A stretch of 64,000 nt of DNA from Roseateles sp. (GTDB taxonomy: Bacteria > Pseudomonadota > Gammaproteobacteria > Burkholderiales > Burkholderiaceae_C): the NCBI GenBank assembly GCA_016790285.1, contig JAEUPJ010000010.1, forward strand, positions 1 through 64,000, given 5' to 3'. Positions 27,340 to 37,383 of the stretch are shown here, piece after piece. The notes below the pieces were generated by a model that ran no database searches, had not been told where the DNA came from, and was given only the letters and a program-made list of their open reading frames with translations. How positions within the stretch are numbered: position 1 is the first letter of the stretch; the number at the start of each line of letters is the position of its first letter. A program made the position numbers and the translations under genes.

Positions 27340-29283
27340 ATGACCCAGCACCCCCACCGAGCCGCCCGCCGGCCACTGCAGCTTGGCGGCATCGCCATGG
27401 CACTCGCACTCCTGCAGGCTCCCGCCTGGGCGACCAGCTACATCTGGCAGGGCGGCAGCGGCGTGTGGGACGACCCCGGCCGCTGGACGCTCCTGGGCGT
27501 GCCCGGCAGCGGCGACACCGCCACCGTCCAGGGCACCGGCACCGGTGAGGTGCTCGTGCGCGACCTGCGCAGCGTCGGGGAACTCATCATCAACGGCAAC
27601 CTGGCCAGCACCTCCACGCTGACGGCGGGAGCGCTGACCTTTGAATCGGGATACTTCGGCCGCACCATCGCACAGGGCGCCGGCGGCATCATGAATGTCA
27701 CCGGCAACACGGTGTTCAACGGCGCCTTCGTGCAAACGGTGGCCTACAGCAGCACCATCAACCTCGGCGGCAACGCCACCTGGCTGGCGGGCAACGGCCG
27801 CATCTCGGTCGAGCCAGCCTACAGCGCCGGGGCACAGAGCTATGCCACGTCGGTGCTCAACATCGGGGCGGGCACCACTTTCAGCGACCTGGGCGCGGCC
27901 GGCACCAGCGGGTTCAAGGTCATCAGCGGAACCAACATCGATGGCACCTACCTGCGCAGCGGCGTGGGCGACACCTACGGGCGCAACATCAACGTCAATG
28001 GCACGCTGAACATCGCCAGCGGCAACTTCATCTTCGACACCGGCAACTATGCCAACACGTCCCGCGGCACCATCAACGTCGCCAGCGGCAGCACGCTCGG
28101 CCTGGCCAACATCACGTTCACGCAAGGCAGCGTCATCAACAACGGGCTGGTGCGTCAGTACGGCGGCAACGTGACGGTGAGCAGCGGCGTTCAGATCGGC
28201 GGCGCCTGGCAAATGGATCAGGGCGTCATGACGGTCGAGGGCAACCACACCCTCGCCTCGCTCGTGCTCAAAGGCAACCAGATCAACGGTGCAGGCACCT
28301 TGACCACCGGCAGCCTCACGTTCAACGGCGGCAAGATGGGGGGCACCAGCGGCGCGCTGGGCGGCGGCACATTGGCGGTGACAGGAACGGCCACCCTCAG
28401 CGGTAGCAGCGTTCTGAATGTCGACTACAACCACACCCTCAATCTCGGCGGCGCAACCCGCTGGACCGCGGGCGACGGTCGCCTGGCCGTTTCCACCGGC
28501 GGCAGCTCCGGCCCGGATGCCCACCTGAACGTGCTCGCCGGCGCGACCTTCACGGACGAAGGATCCGCCGCGGCCAACAGCTACAAGACGCTCGTCGGCT
28601 CGCGCCTCTTCACCAACAGTGGCACCTACGTGCGTACCGGCCTGGGCGAAACCTACGCCTCCGGCTTCAGCAACGCGGGCCTGCTGCGAATCGACCAGGG
28701 CACCTTCAGCGTCGACGCGAGCTTCAGCAACACCGGTCGGGTCCATGTGGCCTCCGGTGCCCGGCTGATGACCTACAGCAACCAGTTCGTCAGCAACGGT
28801 GCCCTCACGGGGGACGGCGTCGTGAAGACCCTCAACGCCGGTACGGCGTTGACGAGCAATGGCAGCATCAACCCCGGCCAGGACGGCAGCGCCGGCACGC
28901 TCACCATCGACGGCGATCTGACGCTGAGCGGCAGCTCGGTGCTGCATATCGACCTGACCAGCAACGGCGCCGACAGGCTCGTGGTCACGAGCGACGCCTT
29001 GTGGCGCGGCGAGCTTTCCATCTGGGGCGGCGCGGACCTGTCGCTGCAGGTAGGCGACGCCTACACGATTGCCAGCTTCAGCCAGCGGGTGTCCAACTCC
29101 GTGTTTGACAGCATCAGCTGGCACGGGCTGAACGGCAACCAGTTCGCCATCGACTACACGACCGACAGCATCGTGCTGCGCGTGACTGCCGTGCCGGAGC
29201 CAGCCAGCTACGCGCTGTGGGCGCTGGGCCTGGCACTGGTGGCAGGCTGCAAATCGCGGCGTGGAGCCAACACCCGGGCATGA
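27340..29283 (+). CDS. PEP-CTERM-anchored beta-repeat exoprotein
   Basis: This is a secreted 647-residue protein with a signal peptide ending near residue 32 (LLQAPAWA). A long Gly/Ser/Thr/Asn-rich region follows, with imperfect repeats such as NVTGNTVFNGAF, LNIASGNFIFDTGN and LTTGSLTFNGGK, probably a right-handed beta-helix. The C-terminus VPEPASYALWALGLALVAGC followed by KSRR is a textbook PEP-CTERM signal: exosortase target, membrane helix and basic tail. Such proteins are tied to exopolysaccharide and biofilm production. No exosortase gene is in the window. The 658-codon open frame on the opposite strand is an artefact of base composition. Confidence 0.9.
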   Translation: MTQHPHRAARRPLQLGGIAMALALLQAPAWATSYIWQGGSGVWDDPGRWTLLGVPGSGDTATVQGTGTGEVLVRDLRSVGELIINGNLASTSTLTAGALTFESGYFGRTIAQGAGGIMNVTGNTVFNGAFVQTVAYSSTINLGGNATWLAGNGRISVEPAYSAGAQSYATSVLNIGAGTTFSDLGAAGTSGFKVISGTNIDGTYLRSGVGDTYGRNINVNGTLNIASGNFIFDTGNYANTSRGTINVASGSTLGLANITFTQGSVINNGLVRQYGGNVTVSSGVQIGGAWQMDQGVMTVEGNHTLASLVLKGNQINGAGTLTTGSLTFNGGKMGGTSGALGGGTLAVTGTATLSGSSVLNVDYNHTLNLGGATRWTAGDGRLAVSTGGSSGPDAHLNVLAGATFTDEGSAAANSYKTLVGSRLFTNSGTYVRTGLGETYASGFSNAGLLRIDQGTFSVDASFSNTGRVHVASGARLMTYSNQFVSNGALTGDGVVKTLNAGTALTSNGSINPGQDGSAGTLTIDGDLTLSGSSVLHIDLTSNGADRLVVTSDALWRGELSIWGGADLSLQVGDAYTIASFSQRVSNSVFDSISWHGLNGNQFAIDYTTDSIVLRVTAVPEPASYALWALGLALVAGCKSRRGANTRA

Positions 29284-29356: not shown

Positions 29357-30010
29357 ATGGAACTTGACGCCAACTCATTCCACCAAGCATGCCGCGAAGG
29401 CGGCCGGCAGATCGAAGCCTGGCTTCGCGTCGTCGACCGCGAACACGGCGCGCGCTTCTATCGCGAAGCGGCTGGCGCGTTGCGCAGTTGGCATGCTGCC
29501 GAAGACGTTGTTCAGGAGGCGATGGTCAAGGTGTGGCAGCGCTGCACGACGTTTCGCGGCATGGGTGATCCGGTGGCATGGATCCACCAGATCGTGCGCC
29601 ACACCCTGCTGGACGCCCTGCGCCAGCGCAAAACCCAGGCCCCACGCGAAGCGCCGCTGCATGACGACGACGGGCAGTTGACGCAGGACGTCGAAGCGGC
29701 CGTGCGAGAACTTTCTGCCAGCCAGGTTTGCACCCCGGACGGCATGCTGGCCGAGCACCAGGTGGAAGCCGTGTTTCGCCGGTGCTTCGAGCAGTTCGCG
29801 GCTGCCCATCCCGAACACGCGATGGTGCTGCGCTGGGTGGTGGAGGACGGGCTGGACAACGCCGCCATCGAGGCCTTGCTGGAACGCAGCCCGGGCGCCA
29901 CGCGCGAGTTCATCTCGCAATGCCGCAAGAAGGCGCGCCCCTTCTTCTCGGCTTGGTACGCGCTGGTCAGCCCTGCCCAGACGCAGACCCGCACCGGCAT
30001 GCCGTCATGA
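29357..30010 (+). CDS. ECF-like sigma-70 family RNA polymerase sigma factor
   Basis: 217 residues. Region 2 is seen at about residues 35-93, with AAEDVVQEAMVKVWQR as the core-binding helix and DPVAWIHQIVRHTLLDALRQ as the -10 recognition part. Region 4 is at about 135-195 (NAAIEALLERSPGATREFIS). Region 3 is absent, as in ECF factors. It would direct RNA polymerase to a dedicated promoter set. The stop codon overlaps the next start (ATGA), and the next gene has anti-sigma topology. No autoregulated promoter could be identified by eye. Confidence 0.85.
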   Translation: MELDANSFHQACREGGRQIEAWLRVVDREHGARFYREAAGALRSWHAAEDVVQEAMVKVWQRCTTFRGMGDPVAWIHQIVRHTLLDALRQRKTQAPREAPLHDDDGQLTQDVEAAVRELSASQVCTPDGMLAEHQVEAVFRRCFEQFAAAHPEHAMVLRWVVEDGLDNAAIEALLERSPGATREFISQCRKKARPFFSAWYALVSPAQTQTRTGMPS

Positions 30011-30627
30011 GCCCACCTGGCGATGACGACCAGCAATGGCTGGACCTACTGGCCGGCCGGGCCGCGCCGGATGCCGATGCGCGCACGCGCAAGGAAGCCG
30101 CCTGGCTGCGTGCCGCCCTGCTCAGCTATCGGGTCAGTGCGCCGCCTGGCGCGCCCACGCACGCCGATGACCGCATCAGCCGCCTGCTGACCCGCGCCCG
30201 TGGAGCCGGCGTGCTGCCCGCTGCCGCGAACGACGACCGCCTGCCCGGCCAGCCAGCCACACGTTCATACCGGCACCGCTGGCCACAGGCACTGGCGGCT
30301 GGCGTCGTGCTGTGCGGCCTCGTCCTCGTGAGCCTGCCGTCACGGCAGACCGTGGAGGAAGACGACCGGGCGATGCGCGGCACCCCGTTGCAGCAGATCA
30401 CGACGCCAGACGCGGCCTTGCGCCGCAACCAGCTGCTGCAAGACCTGCGTGCCGCGGGCCTCGATGCCCAGCCCTACGAGCGCCTGGGCCGACTGGGCAT
30501 CGACGTGAGCCTGCCTGTACCGCTGCCGCGCGATCAAGCGGCAGCGCTCAAGCGGCTCGGCCTGCAGCCGCCGCCGGGACCCAGCCTTCAGATCGAGCTC
30601 CTCGCCCCCGAGCCGCCCCGCCCATGA
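30007..30627 (+). CDS. Single-pass membrane protein, probable anti-sigma factor
   Basis: 206 residues with no recognised domain. About 92 cytoplasmic residues (DDDQQWLDLLAGRAAPDADA onward, the acidic helical start typical of anti-sigma proteins) precede one membrane segment at about residues 93-110 (WPQALAAGVVLCGLVLVSL). About 95 periplasmic residues follow, ending in a Pro-rich tail. No zinc-finger HxxxCxxC is present, so it is not a ZAS-type anti-sigma. The assignment rests on topology and on ATGA overlaps with both the sigma gene and the protease gene. Confidence 0.65.
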   Translation: MSPPGDDDQQWLDLLAGRAAPDADARTRKEAAWLRAALLSYRVSAPPGAPTHADDRISRLLTRARGAGVLPAAANDDRLPGQPATRSYRHRWPQALAAGVVLCGLVLVSLPSRQTVEEDDRAMRGTPLQQITTPDAALRRNQLLQDLRAAGLDAQPYERLGRLGIDVSLPVPLPRDQAAALKRLGLQPPPGPSLQIELLAPEPPRP

Positions 30628-33600
30628 TGGCCTGGACGTGCAAGCCCCACGCCTGGCTCCTTGCTCTCGCGCTCGCCGTCGGCGACACAAACGCGGCCAC
30701 GGCTGACGAGGCTGCCGCAGTCGACACGGCCTGCGCCAGCGTGGCGAAGGATTCGGCAGCGGTGACAGACCTGGAGTCGCTGCGGCAGCGCATCATCGCC
30801 CTTCAAAACGCCCAGAGAGCGGGCCTGGAAGAAGCCTGCCGAGGATGGCGGCAGGTGGCGCGCAATCCGGACAGTGCAGCACTCCTGCGCACCGAATGGC
30901 AGGCCCAGGTCGCTGCGTCACTCGTCTGGCTGGGCCGCTCCGATGAAGCCGAACCGCTGCTGAGTGGCGCCCACGGGCGCTACGCCGAAGCGGGCGACGC
31001 ACACATCGACAAGCGAGCGCAGATCGCCGGCATGTTGATGGTGATCTGGCTGCAACGCGGCCAGGTCGACACAGCACTCCAATGGTCACAGCGCGCGGTG
31101 GATGGGGTCGCCAGCCCCGCATCGAAAGCCACGGTCAGCGAACGGATCCACCTGCAGCTCAATCACGGCGCCATCCTGTCGCGGGCGCGCCGCTACGACG
31201 AGGCTCAGGCGCTGCTGACGCGTCTGGTCGACGAAGCGCTGGCGCAGCCCGACACCCTCGCCGCCGAAGCGGCTGCGGGCTTGAATGCGCTGGCGAACCT
31301 GTCACGGCGCCAGTCGCGCCTGACGCAAGCGCTCGGCTATACCGAACGGGAGATTGCGCTTCGCCAGGCGCGACTGACCCAAGATCCGACCAACATCGCC
31401 AACGCGATGCAGAACCGGGGCCTGCTGCTGATGAATCTGGCGCGCTACGACGAGGCCGAGGCGGCTCTGGAGGCCGCCTTGCAGCAGGCCCGCAGTTCGC
31501 AGGCCGCCGGGGCGGTGGACCTGTGGGGGCACCAGAGTGCCGTGCGCGAGACGCTGTCCGGGTTGTTGTTGGCGCGTGGCCGCCCGGCTGACGCCTTGAA
31601 GGTGGCTGACGATGCCGTGGCCGCCATGGCAGGGCGGCCCGAGGCCACGACCGCGCGCGGTGCGCGCCCGCTGCGCCGCCAAGCCGAGGCACAGCTGGCC
31701 CTTGGCGAATTGAGCCAGGGCGTAGCAACGTACCGGCGTGCACTGCAGCTGCTGGAGCGCAGCGTCGGCGCGCCGGAAGCCGACACGGCCTTGGCGCTGC
31801 GCTTCGGGTATGCGCTGACGATGATCGAGCTGGGTGAGCTGGACGAAGCCGCCGCGTCGCTGCAACAGGTGCTGCACGACAACCGGCCACGCAGCGCGGA
31901 AGAGAACGCTCGCTTGCACGTGCTGCAGGCCACCCTCGCCCAACGCAAGGGCAACCTCCAGGCGGCACGTCAGCACTGGTTGTCGGCCGACGGTGCCCTG
32001 TCTGAGGCACTGCCGCCCAGCCACCCGGACCGGCGCTTCGTCCAGACCCAGGCGTGCGAATTGCTGGCGGCCCCCTGCCCGCCCGCGACCGAGGCTGCCA
32101 GCACGCCGGAAGGCGATGCACTGGTGCAGATGTCGCTTGCCCGCCGCGCGCGCGCCCAGGGCGATGCAGCGGGGGCAGATACCGCCGCGCGGCTGGCCGT
32201 CGCTGCAGCCCTTGCATCCGGCCAGCCTCGCCTGCAGTGGCAGGCGATGGCGCTTTGGGCAGACATCCTCGCCGACGCCGGCCAACGCCAGCAGGCCATC
32301 TTCGTGGGCAAGCTGGCCTTGAACCACTTGCAGCAGCAGCGACAGCGCCTGCTGCCGCTGGGTACCGTTGCCGATGCGCGCTACCTGGCAGACAAGACGC
32401 CGCTGTACCGGCGCGTGGCCGACTGGCTTTTGCAAGCCCAGCGCATCCCCGAGGCGCTGGCCGTGATGCACCTGCTCAAGGTCCAGGAACAAGCGGACTT
32501 CAGCGAACGAGGCGCCGCCGAGACGGGCGCCACGGGCGTCGGCCTGAACCGGGCCGAGCAGGCTGCATGGCAGCAACTGGCGCTGCTGGCGCAACCCGGC
32601 ACGAGCGCCGATGAACTGCGGGTGCTCAGTGAACGGGCGGCTGCCAAGCGCATCACCGCCGAAGAATCCAGCCGCCTCGCCCAGATGCGTCTGGAAGAAG
32701 CCGGGCGCCGCGACAAGCGCGCGCAAGCGCTCAGCGCTTCGCTGGCCGCACTCGGCAAGCCATTACCCGCCAAGCCATCCCCCGCCCTACCAGCCACGCG
32801 GCACCGACCGCCAACCGGGCACCTGCATGCCCACCTGCTGGCGGGCGAGCAGCGCCTGAGCGTGCTGCTGCTCAGCCCCACGCGCACACAGCTGCACCAG
32901 CTCGATCTGCCCGCCGCCGAACTGGCACGTCAGGTGGCCACGCTGCGCGACGCGCTCGCCACGCCGGCTGAAGCGGGCGCTGTGCAGCCGCTCGCCCAAG
33001 CGCTGTACCAACGCGTAGGCCGCTTCATCGACAGGGAAGCCCGGCGAAGCGGAGCGGCGCAGGTGACCGTGTGGCTGGACGGCCCCTTGCGCTACCTCCC
33101 GCCTGGGCTCATGCATGACGGCAAGCAGGCGTTGGCCTCCCGCTACCGCTGGGTCGTGGCGGGCGGCGTGTCGGCGGCTGCGCCAAACCCGGCGGCCTCG
33201 GCAGGCGTGGCCTTGAGGATCGCCGCATTCGGCGTGACGCAGTCGCTGCAGGGTCTGCCAGCCCTGCCTGCCGTGGCCGACGAGCTGTGCGACATCGTCG
33301 ACGGCCCGGTGTTCGGCCTGGAGGCCGAACACCACAACAAGGGCTGCAACGAGAACAGCCGCGGGCGCGGCCCGGTCAATGGCCAGGGTCGACTCAACGC
33401 AGAGTTCACCGAAGCCGCCCTGGTACGGCAGGGCTCGGACGCCGGGCCGGGTGAGCTGCTTCACATCAGCACGCATTTCGTGCTGCGGCCGGGCAGCGTC
33501 GCGAAATCGTGGCTGCTGCTGGGCGATGGCAGCCGGCTGCCTCTGGAACGACTGCGCCGCATGGACGTCGGCACACCACGCCTGGTCACCCTGTCCGCCT

Positions 33601-33884
33601 GCGAAACGGCAGTGACTGACGCATCCGGCGACGGCCGCGAGGTCGACGGGCTGGCCGCGACGCTGCTGGACCGCGGGGTCCGCCAGGTGCTGGCCAGCTT
33701 GTGGCGGGTCGACGACCGCGCGACGGCCCGCTTCATGCAGCGTTTCTATGCCGCCTATGCCACGCAGCCGCACAACGCGGCCGCGGCGCTGCAGCAGGCC
33801 CAGCGCCAAGCGATTGCGCAAGGCGCGCCAGCCCGGGACTGGGCGGCCTTCGTGTTGGTGGGCCAGGCCCACGCGGGCTACTGA
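30624..33884 (+). CDS. Secreted TPR-CHAT caspase-like protease
   Basis: 1086 residues. A signal peptide ending near residue 26 (HAWLLALALAVGDTNA) is followed by about 700 residues of TPR repeats, for example SLVWLGRSDEAEPLLSGAHG and LLMNLARYDEAEAALEAALQ, and then a C-terminal CHAT domain from about residue 830. The caspase-like dyad is intact: His951 in LHISTHF and Cys993 in LSACETA, with GLAATLLDRGVRQVLASLW after it. CHAT domains belong to the caspase/separase clan. The predicted export puts the protease in the periplasm. The first ATG overlaps the stop of the anti-sigma-like gene, indicating coupling. Confidence 0.88.
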   Translation: MMAWTCKPHAWLLALALAVGDTNAATADEAAAVDTACASVAKDSAAVTDLESLRQRIIALQNAQRAGLEEACRGWRQVARNPDSAALLRTEWQAQVAASLVWLGRSDEAEPLLSGAHGRYAEAGDAHIDKRAQIAGMLMVIWLQRGQVDTALQWSQRAVDGVASPASKATVSERIHLQLNHGAILSRARRYDEAQALLTRLVDEALAQPDTLAAEAAAGLNALANLSRRQSRLTQALGYTEREIALRQARLTQDPTNIANAMQNRGLLLMNLARYDEAEAALEAALQQARSSQAAGAVDLWGHQSAVRETLSGLLLARGRPADALKVADDAVAAMAGRPEATTARGARPLRRQAEAQLALGELSQGVATYRRALQLLERSVGAPEADTALALRFGYALTMIELGELDEAAASLQQVLHDNRPRSAEENARLHVLQATLAQRKGNLQAARQHWLSADGALSEALPPSHPDRRFVQTQACELLAAPCPPATEAASTPEGDALVQMSLARRARAQGDAAGADTAARLAVAAALASGQPRLQWQAMALWADILADAGQRQQAIFVGKLALNHLQQQRQRLLPLGTVADARYLADKTPLYRRVADWLLQAQRIPEALAVMHLLKVQEQADFSERGAAETGATGVGLNRAEQAAWQQLALLAQPGTSADELRVLSERAAAKRITAEESSRLAQMRLEEAGRRDKRAQALSASLAALGKPLPAKPSPALPATRHRPPTGHLHAHLLAGEQRLSVLLLSPTRTQLHQLDLPAAELARQVATLRDALATPAEAGAVQPLAQALYQRVGRFIDREARRSGAAQVTVWLDGPLRYLPPGLMHDGKQALASRYRWVVAGGVSAAAPNPAASAGVALRIAAFGVTQSLQGLPALPAVADELCDIVDGPVFGLEAEHHNKGCNENSRGRGPVNGQGRLNAEFTEAALVRQGSDAGPGELLHISTHFVLRPGSVAKSWLLLGDGSRLPLERLRRMDVGTPRLVTLSACETAVTDASGDGREVDGLAATLLDRGVRQVLASLWRVDDRATARFMQRFYAAYATQPHNAAAALQQAQRQAIAQGAPARDWAAFVLVGQAHAGY

Positions 33885-33891
33885 CTCGCCG

Positions 33892-34182
33892 ATGAGTGCC
33901 CACCGCATCATCGAGATCCACCCCGATGCGCCGCCCAAGCCAGCGCTCGAGGCCCCCTGCAACGGGTGCGGGGTGTGTTGCCTGGCCGAACCCTGCCCGC
34001 TGGGCGTGCTGATCAGCCGGCGCCGCCGTGGTGCATGCAGCGCCCTGCAATGGGACGGCCAGCGCTACGCCTGCGGCGCGCTGACGACGCAACCGGGCGG
34101 CTTGCGGGGCTGGCTCGTGCGGCGCTGGATCGCCGCCGGCGCCGGTTGCGATTGCTCACTCGAACCTGCGGGCAAGCCCTAG
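33892..34182 (+). CDS. Small cysteine-cluster protein (YkgJ-like)
   Basis: 96 residues with nine cysteines. The motif CNGCGVCCLAEPC (Cys23, 26, 29, 30, 35) is followed by Cys49, Cys61, Cys86 and Cys88. The pattern resembles the zinc- or iron-chelating YkgJ/UPF0153 family, although this protein is short. There is no signal peptide, so it is cytoplasmic. It starts seven bases after the CHAT gene stop and is probably co-transcribed. The function is unknown. Confidence 0.75.
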   Translation: MSAHRIIEIHPDAPPKPALEAPCNGCGVCCLAEPCPLGVLISRRRRGACSALQWDGQRYACGALTTQPGGLRGWLVRRWIAAGAGCDCSLEPAGKP

Positions 34183-34240: not shown

Positions 34241-35809
34241 ATGAAATCTGTTCTCCGGGCTCTGCCCCTGATCGCCGCGCTGGCCCTGGGCTCGGCCATC
34301 GCCGCCCCGCTGCGCTGGGCCGCCACGAACGACATCCTGACGCTGGACCCGCATTCGCAAGACCACAACACCTCCAACGCCATCGGCACCCACATCTACG
34401 AGGGCCTGACGCGCCTGAGCCGCGAGTACCGCCCGGAGCCGTCTCTGGCCACCAAGTGGACCTACCTCTCCCAGACCCAGGTGCGCTTCGAACTGCGCCG
34501 CGGCGTCAAGTTCCATGACGGCTCACCTTTCACGGCCGACGACGTCGTCTTCAGCTTCGGGCGCATCACCCAGCCCCAGGGCACCAAGCAGACCTATGTC
34601 TCGGGCATCAAGGAGGTCAGGAAGATCGACGACAACACGGTCGACCTGATCCTGGAAGCCCCCACGCCGATGCTGCTGCAGAACATCATCAGCTTCCCGA
34701 TCATGAGCAAGGCGTGGTCGGTCAAGAACAACACCACCAACACCCAGGACTACAAGGCCAAGGAAGAGAACTTCGCCTCCCGCAACGCCAACGGCACGGG
34801 CCCGTACAAGCTGGCGAGCTGGCAACCCGACCAGGCCGTGAAGATGGTGGCCAACAAGGACTGGTGGGACAAGAACCCGAGCAACGTCACCGAGCTGAGC
34901 TACCTGCCCATCAAGTCGGCGCCCACGCGCGTGGCCGCGCTGCTCTCGGGCGATGTCGACATCGTCACCGACCTGCCGCCACAGGACTTCTTCAAGCTCA
35001 AGGAGGAAGGCAAGGTCAAGCTGCTCGAGGGCCCCGAGATCCGCACGATCTTCTTCGTGATGGACCAGGGCAGCGAGGAGCTGCGCGAGTCCAGCGTCAA
35101 GGGCAAGAACCCCTTCAAGGACAAGCGCGTGCGCGAAGCCATGAACCTGGCGCTGGACCGGGAGGCCATCAAGCGCAGCATCATGCGCGGCTTGTCGGTG
35201 CCCGCCGCGCTGATGATCCCGCCGGGCGTCAACGGCTACGACGCCGCGCTCGACGCCCCCGTCAAGCCCGACCTGGACCGTGCCCGCAAGCTGCTCGCCG
35301 AGGCCGGCTACCCCCAGGGCTTCGAGGTGCCGCTGCACTGCCCCAACAACCGCTACGTGAACGACGAGCAGGTCTGCCAGGCGGCGGTGTCGATGTGGGC
35401 CAAGATCGGCGTGAAGGTGCGCCTCATCGCAGCGCCCTTCTCCACCCACAGCCAGACCTTCCAGCGCGGTGAATCCCCCTTCTACATGCTCGGCTGGGGC
35501 GTCTCGACCTACGATGCGCTGTACGGCATGCAGGCCTGGGGCCACACCCGCACCAGCGGCGCCGACGGCAACTTCAACTTCGGCAAGGTCAGCGATGCGA
35601 CGCTCGACGGCCTCATCCAGAAGATCAAGTTCGAGCCCGACGTGCCCAAGCGCAACGCGCTGATCCGGGACGCCCTGCTGCGCATCCGTGACGAGTCCCT
35701 GTTTGTTCCGATTCACCACCAGATTCGCCCCTGGGCGATGAAGCCGGGCGTGGACACCATCCACCGCTCCAACGACTACTTCGAAGCACGCTACACCACC
35801 GTCAAATGA
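34241..35809 (+). CDS. ABC transporter substrate-binding protein, peptide/nickel (SBP_bac_5) family, copy 1
   Basis: Periplasmic binding protein of 522 residues with a signal peptide (MKSVLRALPLIAALALGSAI). Family features include LRWAATNDILTLDPHSQDHN at the N-terminus, VRFELRRGVKFHDGSPFTAD and the C-terminal IHHQIRPWAMKPGV. DppA/OppA-type proteins bind peptides, nickel-chelates or other solutes. GAGGAA lies seven bases before the ATG. Its stop overlaps the start of a close paralog. No permease or ATPase gene is nearby, so transport partners are elsewhere. Confidence 0.92.
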   Translation: MKSVLRALPLIAALALGSAIAAPLRWAATNDILTLDPHSQDHNTSNAIGTHIYEGLTRLSREYRPEPSLATKWTYLSQTQVRFELRRGVKFHDGSPFTADDVVFSFGRITQPQGTKQTYVSGIKEVRKIDDNTVDLILEAPTPMLLQNIISFPIMSKAWSVKNNTTNTQDYKAKEENFASRNANGTGPYKLASWQPDQAVKMVANKDWWDKNPSNVTELSYLPIKSAPTRVAALLSGDVDIVTDLPPQDFFKLKEEGKVKLLEGPEIRTIFFVMDQGSEELRESSVKGKNPFKDKRVREAMNLALDREAIKRSIMRGLSVPAALMIPPGVNGYDAALDAPVKPDLDRARKLLAEAGYPQGFEVPLHCPNNRYVNDEQVCQAAVSMWAKIGVKVRLIAAPFSTHSQTFQRGESPFYMLGWGVSTYDALYGMQAWGHTRTSGADGNFNFGKVSDATLDGLIQKIKFEPDVPKRNALIRDALLRIRDESLFVPIHHQIRPWAMKPGVDTIHRSNDYFEARYTTVK

Positions 35810-37383
35810 AGAAGCTCTCCACCCTCGCCGCCGCCCTGCTGCTCGCCTCGGGCCTGACGGCCCTCCCGGCCATGGCCAACTCCCTGCGCTGGGCTGCCCA
35901 GAACGACATCCAGACGCTGGACCCGCACTCGCAGAACCACTCGGCCACCACGACCATTTCGGGCTACGCCTATGAAGGCCTGACCCGCTACACCGAGAAG
36001 TTCGACGTCGAGCCGGCCCTGGCCACCAAATGGACCTTCGTCACGCCGACCCAGGTGCGCTTTGAACTGCGCCGCGGCGTGAAGTTCCACGACGGCACGC
36101 CGTTCACGGCTGACGACGTCATCTTCAGCCTGCAGCGCATCAAGCACCCGGCCAGCAACATGGTCATCTACTCCTCCGGCATCAAGGAGGCCAGGAAGAT
36201 CGACGACTTCACCGTCGACCTCATCCTCGACGGCCCCAACCCCGTGCTGACGCGCAACCTCACCTTCGTGCGCATCGTCAGCAAGGCCTGGGCGCAGAAG
36301 AACCGCAGCGAGAACCCGCAGGACTTCAAGGCCAAGGAAGACACCTACGCCTCGCGCAATGCCAACGGCACCGGTCCCTTCCGCATCACGAGCTGGACGC
36401 CCGACCAGAAGATCACGATGGTCGCCAACAAGGACTGGTGGGACAAGCCCAAGGGCAACATCAGCGAGGTGACCTACCTGCCCATCAAGCAGGACGCGAC
36501 CCGCGTGGCCGCGCTGCTCTCGGGCGACCTGGACCTGCTGACCGACCTGCCGCCGCAGGACGTCGCCAAGCTCAAGGCCGACCCGCGGCTGAAGGTCATC
36601 GAAGGTCCCGAGAACCGCACCATCTTCTTCGCGCTGGACCTCGGCAGCGACGAGATCAAGGGCAGCAGCGTGAAGGGCAAGAACCCCTTCAAGGACAAGC
36701 GTGTGCGTGAGGCCATGAGCCTGGCCATCGACCGCGAGGCCATCAAGCGCAGCCTGATGCGCAACCTGTCCATTCCCGCCGGCATCATGGTGGCGCCGGT
36801 GGCCTACGGCTGGTCGCAGGAGCTCGACACCGTCGCCAAGCCCGACCTCGCGCGTGCCAAGCAGCTGATGACGGACGCCGGCTACGCCGACGGCTTCGAC
36901 ACGCCACTGGCCTGCCCGAACGACCGCTACGTCAACGATGAGGAGATCTGCCAGGCAGTCGTCTCGATGTGGGCCCGCATCGGCATCAAGGCCAAGCTCA
37001 CCACGCAGCCGATGACGCAGCACTCGGCCGCCCTGCAGCGCTTCGAGCTGCCGCTGTACATGTACGGCTGGGGCGTGACGACCTTCGACGCGCAGTACAC
37101 GCTGCAGGACATCGTGCACACCAAGACGTCGGGGGCCGACGGCAAGGGCAACTACTCGCGCGTCAGCGACGCCAAGGTCGACGCCCTGGTGCAGCAGATG
37201 AAGGTCGAGACCGACGTGCCCAAGCGGCTGGCCCTCATGCAGGAAGCCCTCAAGCGCACGCGCGACGAGGTCCTGTTCATCCCCATCCACCACCAGGTGC
37301 GCCCGTGGGCGATGAAGGCAGCCGTCAGCATCCCGCACTCCGCCAACGACGCGCCGCAGGCCAAGTGGGCCACGGTCAAGTGA
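35806..37383 (+). CDS. ABC transporter substrate-binding protein, SBP_bac_5 family, copy 2
   Basis: 525 residues with a signal peptide ending near PAMA. It aligns along its full length with the preceding gene (for example LRWAAQNDIQTLDPHSQNHS against LRWAATNDILTLDPHSQDHN, and KGKNPFKDKRVREAM in both), so the pair arose by tandem duplication. Differences concentrate in the middle lobe, consistent with changed ligand preference. The ATG overlaps the previous stop (ATGA). The ligand is unknown. Confidence 0.92.
   Translation: MKKLSTLAAALLLASGLTALPAMANSLRWAAQNDIQTLDPHSQNHSATTTISGYAYEGLTRYTEKFDVEPALATKWTFVTPTQVRFELRRGVKFHDGTPFTADDVIFSLQRIKHPASNMVIYSSGIKEARKIDDFTVDLILDGPNPVLTRNLTFVRIVSKAWAQKNRSENPQDFKAKEDTYASRNANGTGPFRITSWTPDQKITMVANKDWWDKPKGNISEVTYLPIKQDATRVAALLSGDLDLLTDLPPQDVAKLKADPRLKVIEGPENRTIFFALDLGSDEIKGSSVKGKNPFKDKRVREAMSLAIDREAIKRSLMRNLSIPAGIMVAPVAYGWSQELDTVAKPDLARAKQLMTDAGYADGFDTPLACPNDRYVNDEEICQAVVSMWARIGIKAKLTTQPMTQHSAALQRFELPLYMYGWGVTTFDAQYTLQDIVHTKTSGADGKGNYSRVSDAKVDALVQQMKVETDVPKRLALMQEALKRTRDEVLFIPIHHQVRPWAMKAAVSIPHSANDAPQAKWATVK

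Follow-up and report, generated by a model that had tools for sequence, protein, structure and literature searches.

Homologues of caspases are common in bacteria and, to our knowledge, mostly have no known task. Membrane-bound anti-sigma factors, in turn, are subject to regulated intramembrane proteolysis in the RseA-DegS-RseP system, in which the site-1 protease DegS is an HtrA-type serine protease. That a TPR-CHAT protease can release a sigma factor from its inhibitor is already in print for Craspase, where the TPR-CHAT protein Csx29 is reported to cleave Csx30, the inhibitor of the sigma factor CASP-sigma, in a cytoplasmic, RNA-activated system (PMC10028731). For the actinobacterial group ECF54 of extracytoplasmic function (ECF) sigma factors, a review reports genes for CHAT proteins, subtilases and carboxypeptidases in the neighbourhood and suggests that control is proteolytic, with no anti-sigma factor involved (PMC8999054). 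A 2012 survey places C14 caspase homologues (metacaspases) in predicted operons with sigma-70 factors in Myxococcus, Anaeromyxobacter, Haliangium, Sorangium, Ralstonia and Fibrobacter (PMC3501461), and a 2021 study notes ECF genes in caspase-EACC2 neighbourhoods (PMC8195603). Here we describe a three-gene operon of Roseateles sp. that encodes an ECF-type sigma factor, a single-pass membrane protein and a TPR-CHAT protease that is likely exported (Table 1). It lies in a window of 64,000 nucleotides, by which we mean the whole stretch analysed (assembly GCA_016790285.1, contig JAEUPJ010000010.1, positions 1 to 64,000 of the forward strand). We propose that the operon specifies a transmembrane switch, with a probability of roughly 0.45: an exported protease of clan CD would cut a membrane anti-sigma factor outside the membrane, after which RseP would free the sigma factor.

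The three genes are coupled by overlaps of 4 bases. The ATGA couplings leading from the sigma gene to the membrane-protein gene and on to the TPR-CHAT gene, which an initial annotation made from the sequence alone had pointed out, proved exact: the sigma stop codon (30008-30010) overlaps the ATG of the membrane-protein gene at 30007, and the stop codon of that gene (30625-30627) overlaps the ATG of the CHAT gene at 30624. The sigma protein matches Sigma70_r2 (E 1.4e-14) and TIGR02937 (50.6 bits against a cut-off of 42.9). All 13 members of a sigma profile built from the family match Sigma70_r2, four of them, the window protein not included, match Pfam Sigma70_r4_2, and in the PDB this profile of 13 rows aligns with ECF sigma factors of solved structure over profile positions 7-196 of 207.

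The order of sigma, membrane protein and CHAT is conserved among relatives. A search with the sigma protein in 299 genomes of the family found eight genomes, including that of the window, at E 6.2e-48 or better, the next match following only at E 1.4e-12, and a scan of named genomes added a Roseateles metagenome-assembled genome (L034). Since matches in Paucibacter PLA-PC-4 and Pelomonas V22 are the same genes as those of G182 and G111 and were not counted separately, there are nine distinct close loci. The three-gene order is kept in all nine (in one, L046, with the active site deleted), and the first two genes overlap by 4 bases in seven. A profile of the membrane protein then recovered five more genomes among 399 of the order, another four, each with a sigma gene next to the match, among 369 of the class and one more in 398 genomes of the phylum; the other phylum scan of 398 genomes gave weak matches only. 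Weak profile matches in G869, G1390 and G1103, which have no sigma gene beside them, were dropped, and those in G1189, G854, G686, G980, G801 and G940 (best E 9e-5 to 0.003) were left out. For L047, L048, L049 and L075, several proteins start at a position chosen by alignment rather than at a start codon. With 19 loci in all across the scanned genomes, the sigma-membrane unit is rare and patchy.

What adjoins this unit is almost always a protease of clan CD. Two loci (L063 and L065) end at contig ends and were omitted from the neighbour count, leaving 17 readable loci, and a gene for TPR-CHAT, Peptidase_C14 or both adjoins the pair in 16 of them, among these seven of the eight readable loci within the ten distant ones. 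The count includes L061, where TPR and CHAT lie in two open reading frames, and L046. The initial annotation had suggested a search for the three-gene order to establish a conserved association; the association is present, and it is wider than CHAT alone, with a clan-CD protease supported as the shared third element. Although its first rows came from CHAT-bearing loci, the profile consists of membrane proteins only and holds no protease sequence; protease neighbours were therefore not directly selected for. From the CHAT and C14 counts in 15 of the pair-bearing genomes, at about one gene per kilobase, an adjoining clan-CD gene would be expected by chance in 0.037 genomes of 15, compared with 14 of 15 observed, a comparison tempered by the fact that eight of the 15 come from one family and are therefore not independent. 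In a control with home-made CHAT, TPR-CHAT and C14 profiles on fetched flanks of ~1.5 kb, none of 22 other ECF loci of the same family had such a neighbour, and the same short-flank test recovered seven of eight true loci (L009 was missed). Among the sigma proteins, 18 of which were placed in a tree, those of the nine close loci group as a single clade (100/100); deeper down, 10 of the 15 inner branches leave the order open, so that the number of switches between CHAT and C14 cannot be read from it.

The protease carries the residues expected of an active enzyme and the marks of export. The window protein matches CHAT (PF12770) with 156 to 160.6 bits and matches TPRs too. His951 and Cys993, described at first annotation as an intact dyad, do fall in the aligned catalytic columns, and all 11 CHAT and all 7 C14 domains aligned keep the dyad, as do L034 and L036. 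By hydropathy the N-terminus reads as a signal peptide, again as first annotated. An N-terminal hydrophobic core of at least 1.8 is present in 18 of 20 scored proteases, and most linked clan-CD proteases look exported. The extracytoplasmic location proposed for the CHAT protein is supported by this predicted export, which gives no indication of a cytoplasmic one. The mature window protein has seven cysteines, namely the catalytic Cys993 and C37/C72, C478/C485 and C889/C908, and the columns of the six non-catalytic ones are conserved in 7 or 8 of 8 rows. These would form three conserved pairs, as expected for a periplasmic CHAT protein.

The membrane protein has the hallmarks of a membrane anti-sigma factor: its gene directly follows the sigma gene, and it has a single transmembrane segment and a predicted cytoplasmic N-terminus. 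Hydropathy gives one segment with 94 residues beyond it, in agreement with the single segment and about 95 periplasmic residues annotated before, and the 15 residues preceding it hold three K/R and no D/E. Across the family the best hydrophobic window reaches at least 1.5 in 16 of 18 members (the exceptions are L046 at 1.29 and L061 at 1.42), no second window exceeds 1.19, 17 of 18 members carry a net positive charge on the N-terminal side of the segment, and the part beyond it measures 87 to 138 residues. Alignments make an N-terminal motif, DDxxWLDxLAGR, and a C-terminal domain recognisable across the family. Just outside the membrane, in an otherwise variable linker, an Arg-Gly pair recurs: of 18 aligned members, 13 have the Arg, 15 the Gly and 11 both, and allowing the Arg one place earlier brings the site to 16 of 18. 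This recurrent pair is perhaps the cleavage site.

In the switch that we propose, the cytoplasmic N-terminal domain of the membrane protein, with its conserved motif, would hold the ECF sigma factor at the membrane. Its counterpart would be a clan-CD cysteine protease in the periplasm, which in the window is a TPR-CHAT protein and in some relatives a C14 caspase of the classic type, and an envelope signal would be sensed by the repeats of the protease or by other exported proteins. The protease would then cut the ectodomain of ~95 residues, for which the Arg-Gly some 12 residues from the membrane is a plausible site; RseP, which is present in the window genome (304.6 bits), would cut the remaining stub within the membrane, the N-terminal piece would be degraded, and the freed sigma factor would transcribe its own operon and neighbouring surface-protein genes. 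This arrangement resembles RseA-DegS-RseP in its ECF sigma factor, its single-pass membrane protein with an extracytoplasmic domain, its exported protease and the presence of RseP. It differs in that the candidate site-1 protease is an operon-encoded cysteine protease of the caspase clan rather than an HtrA-type enzyme, and in that the membrane protein has no match to the RseA family.

Several observations weigh against this proposal and bear on its alternatives. First, no known anti-sigma Pfam family was found among the matches of 17 membrane-protein members (E up to 0.1; DUF3379 matches one of the 17 at E 0.08), and a PDB search with the membrane protein gave no chain better than E 0.16 and no anti-sigma match. 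The membrane protein might then not be an anti-sigma factor at all, and the neighbouring genes might have separate roles, for instance in a defence or cell-death cluster, as the weak resemblance of the window CHAT to Csx29 and to BovA (E 7e-5) would also allow. We regard this as improbable, given that the membrane gene follows the sigma gene with 4-base overlaps, that the topology is N-in with a positive inner side in nearly all members, that the N-terminal motif is conserved and that CRISPR-like repeats are absent nearby.

Second, in one distant locus, L077, the pair is kept, yet there is no CHAT or C14 in its genome. In L064 the site-1 enzyme could be the exported trypsin-like protease whose gene directly follows that of the membrane protein. 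The 220 bases upstream of eight sigma and five surface-protein genes yielded no common promoter motif; the search returned only GC-rich word pairs, common to at most five of the 13 upstream regions. The caspase-type protease, like nearby surface proteins, could be an output of a sigma factor held by the membrane protein and act on surface or foreign proteins, with an ordinary protease such as DegS or the trypsin-like enzyme cutting the anti-sigma factor. PEP-CTERM genes upstream in four of nine close loci, a Calx-beta protein downstream in L048, the trypsin-like neighbour in L064 and the variation in protease type between CHAT and C14, as outputs might show, all fit such a scheme. We nevertheless think it rather unlikely, because the protease gene usually stands in the operon of the pair and not elsewhere in the genome, its caspase-clan identity is constant across families in which other neighbours vary, and a fixed site-1 enzyme would need no linked gene.

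Third, the protease itself is not uniform. In L046 (4225-7122) the operon is kept, and its TPR-CHAT gene has an in-frame loss that takes out the two catalytic residues; next to it, in tail-to-tail orientation, is an intact C14 gene that encodes no visible signal peptide. Signal-peptide scores are weak in L045 (1.41) and L047 (1.24), and Pfam finds no TPRs in the CHAT proteins of L047 and L078. L046 would suit an exported CHAT or C14 protein that serves mainly as a periplasmic sensor or scaffold on the ectodomain, in the manner of RseB, with catalysis secondary or lost in some lineages. TPR binding repeats in many of the CHAT proteins are in keeping with that role, as is a second exported TPR-CHAT protein encoded in the window genome beside FecR and CHASE2-PAS-GGDEF-EAL genes, which implies that exported CHATs accompany other envelope sensors. 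The intact dyad of all other aligned CHAT and C14 domains argues the other way, and the occurrence of caspases of different build in the same place is more easily explained by shared chemistry; a role mainly as sensor or scaffold is in our view quite unlikely.

Fourth, two members of the membrane-protein family lack Arg-Gly, the one in caspase-free L077 and the one in L078, a locus that has caspases and yet shows neither R nor G in these columns, and the Arg-Gly may simply start the fold of the ectodomain. Taken over all loci, the initial annotation's idea that the CHAT protease would cut the ectodomain of the anti-sigma factor is partly supported, by the operon, by the conserved association and by a probably extracytoplasmic protease; the lost dyad of L046 and the caspase-free L077 speak against it as a simple rule for every locus.

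Around the operon, the PEP-CTERM gene (27340-29283) ends 73 bases upstream of the sigma gene, and a PEP-CTERM protein is likewise encoded just upstream in L034, L035 and L046. The upstream neighbours in the window are this gene and a LuxR-type gene; the downstream flank holds a tandem of two similar genes for family-5 solute-binding proteins (34241-37383), of which the second begins 4 bases ahead of the end of the first, as well as a gene for a UvrD-like helicase. The initial annotation had also singled out a cysteine-cluster gene (33892-34182), which indeed starts 7 bases past the CHAT stop; its role as a partner did not hold, and we excluded it as a fourth part of the unit because no convincing match to it exists at the other close loci (all alignments at E 0.055 or weaker) and its one family match, of the YcgN type, is weak (E 0.081).

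Elsewhere in the window genome, L050:5181-11744 (G000:C52) encodes the second exported TPR-CHAT protein followed on the same strand by the FecR-domain and CHASE2-PAS-GGDEF-EAL genes, possibly a CHAT module with c-di-GMP output. CHASE2 genes also occur in L076 and L087, and together these neighbours hint at several envelope-sensing outputs for exported proteins of the CHAT and C14 types. A FecR-like label for the exported proteins of L076 and L087 was rejected, as Pfam does not show it. Directly upstream of the sigma gene in L087 (9279-10668) are three tandem genes for similar small exported proteins of 130-143 aa, possible targets or signals. One 79-kb contig of a 2.9-Mb genome (L064, L089 and L090; G411:C27) holds five CHAT matches, two of which flank the sigma-membrane pair.

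Table 1. Features of the window, with positions in window coordinates, and genes found at the ten distant loci (the position for L061 is in that locus)
Feature	Position	Strand	Basis or details
PEP-CTERM surface protein, which the switch may have as target or client	27340..29283	+	PF07589, 24.9 bits
ECF-type sigma factor, 217 aa	29357..30010	+	Sigma70_r2, TIGR02937, PDB profile match
Single-pass membrane protein, 206 aa, putative anti-sigma factor	30007..30627	+	Hydropathy, charge, family alignments; no known family
Predicted transmembrane segment, residues 94-112 of the membrane protein	30286..30342	+	Kyte-Doolittle 1.91; second-best window 0.66
R124-G125 of the membrane protein, candidate cleavage site	30376..30381	+	Recurrent in family alignment
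Exported TPR-CHAT protease (predicted), 1086 aa	30624..33884	+	CHAT and TPR domain matches, hydropathy
Putative signal peptide of the TPR-CHAT protein, about residues 1-24	30624..30695	+	Hydropathy; cleavage position read from sequence
CHAT domain	32985..33866	+	PF12770; His951 codon 33474-33476, Cys993 codon 33600-33602
L061	5309-8405		TPR then CHAT in two successive overlapping frames; split gene or frameshift
L062			Exported C14 adjoins pair
L063			Start of PDZ lipoprotein, contig end
L064			TPR-CHAT immediately preceding sigma; membrane gene followed directly by exported trypsin-like protease and next by a second TPR-CHAT
L065			Cut by contig end
L075			Exported C14, then exported TPR protein cut by contig end
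L076			Divergent exported WD40-C14 protein; CHASE2 after membrane gene
L077			FHA and MotA/ExbB genes beside pair, 3.2-kb contig
L078			Exported C14 before pair, CHAT after
L087			Exported C14, then TPR-CHAT

The locus stands closest to Craspase. In both, a TPR-CHAT protein is encoded with an ECF-like sigma factor and an inhibitor whose proteolysis is meant to free the sigma factor (PMC10028731), and the window CHAT is homologous to Csx29 in its catalytic part. It remains below the level of a Csx29 equivalog (E 1.6e-5, 23.9 bits against a cut-off of 300), and its match to PDB 7zoq is at E 0.34. Craspase is linked to CRISPR and activated by target RNA through Cas7-11 (PMC10028731), whereas the window protease looks exported and its putative inhibitor is a membrane protein. 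A CRISPR link was rejected for this region, as there are no CRISPR-like repeats within 20000-45000 of the window; the neighbour genes tested (LuxR-type, PEP-CTERM, solute-binding protein and UvrD) were those of the window only, with no genome-wide search for Cas7-11. ECF54 differs in that a membrane protein is always present in the loci studied here. The operons of metacaspases with sigma-70 factors share the pairing of C14 caspase homologues with a sigma factor, and they are set apart by description only: the available part of the survey mentions no anti-sigma factor, export or exchange with CHAT (PMC3501461). Literature searches on CHAT with ECF sigma or anti-sigma factors and on caspase-like proteins or metacaspases with anti-sigma factors returned the Craspase paper and otherwise unrelated titles; they contained no exported, CRISPR-free version with a membrane anti-sigma factor, and the 2021 ECF classification, which lay outside the search, may list the group. 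We therefore advance, a shade more tentatively than the switch itself, that the locus represents a CRISPR-free, transmembrane counterpart of Craspase, in which CHAT and C14 enzymes would be interchangeable as dedicated site-1 proteases of an unnamed family of membrane anti-sigma factors and would convert envelope signals into ECF sigma activity through a juxtamembrane Arg-Gly cut in several proteobacterial families.

The conserved operon gives bacterial caspase homologues a concrete, testable job in site-1 proteolysis. Were CHAT exchanged for C14 in this position, the implication would be that the cell needs caspase-type cutting as such. If the proposal is true, Craspase falls within a broader pattern of TPR-CHAT proteases that control sigma factors, and a non-CRISPR relative of it is available for study. 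That distant relatives keep the sigma and membrane genes, often with a different caspase, suggests that caspase-type enzymes may flip the switches that lead from the envelope to the genes.

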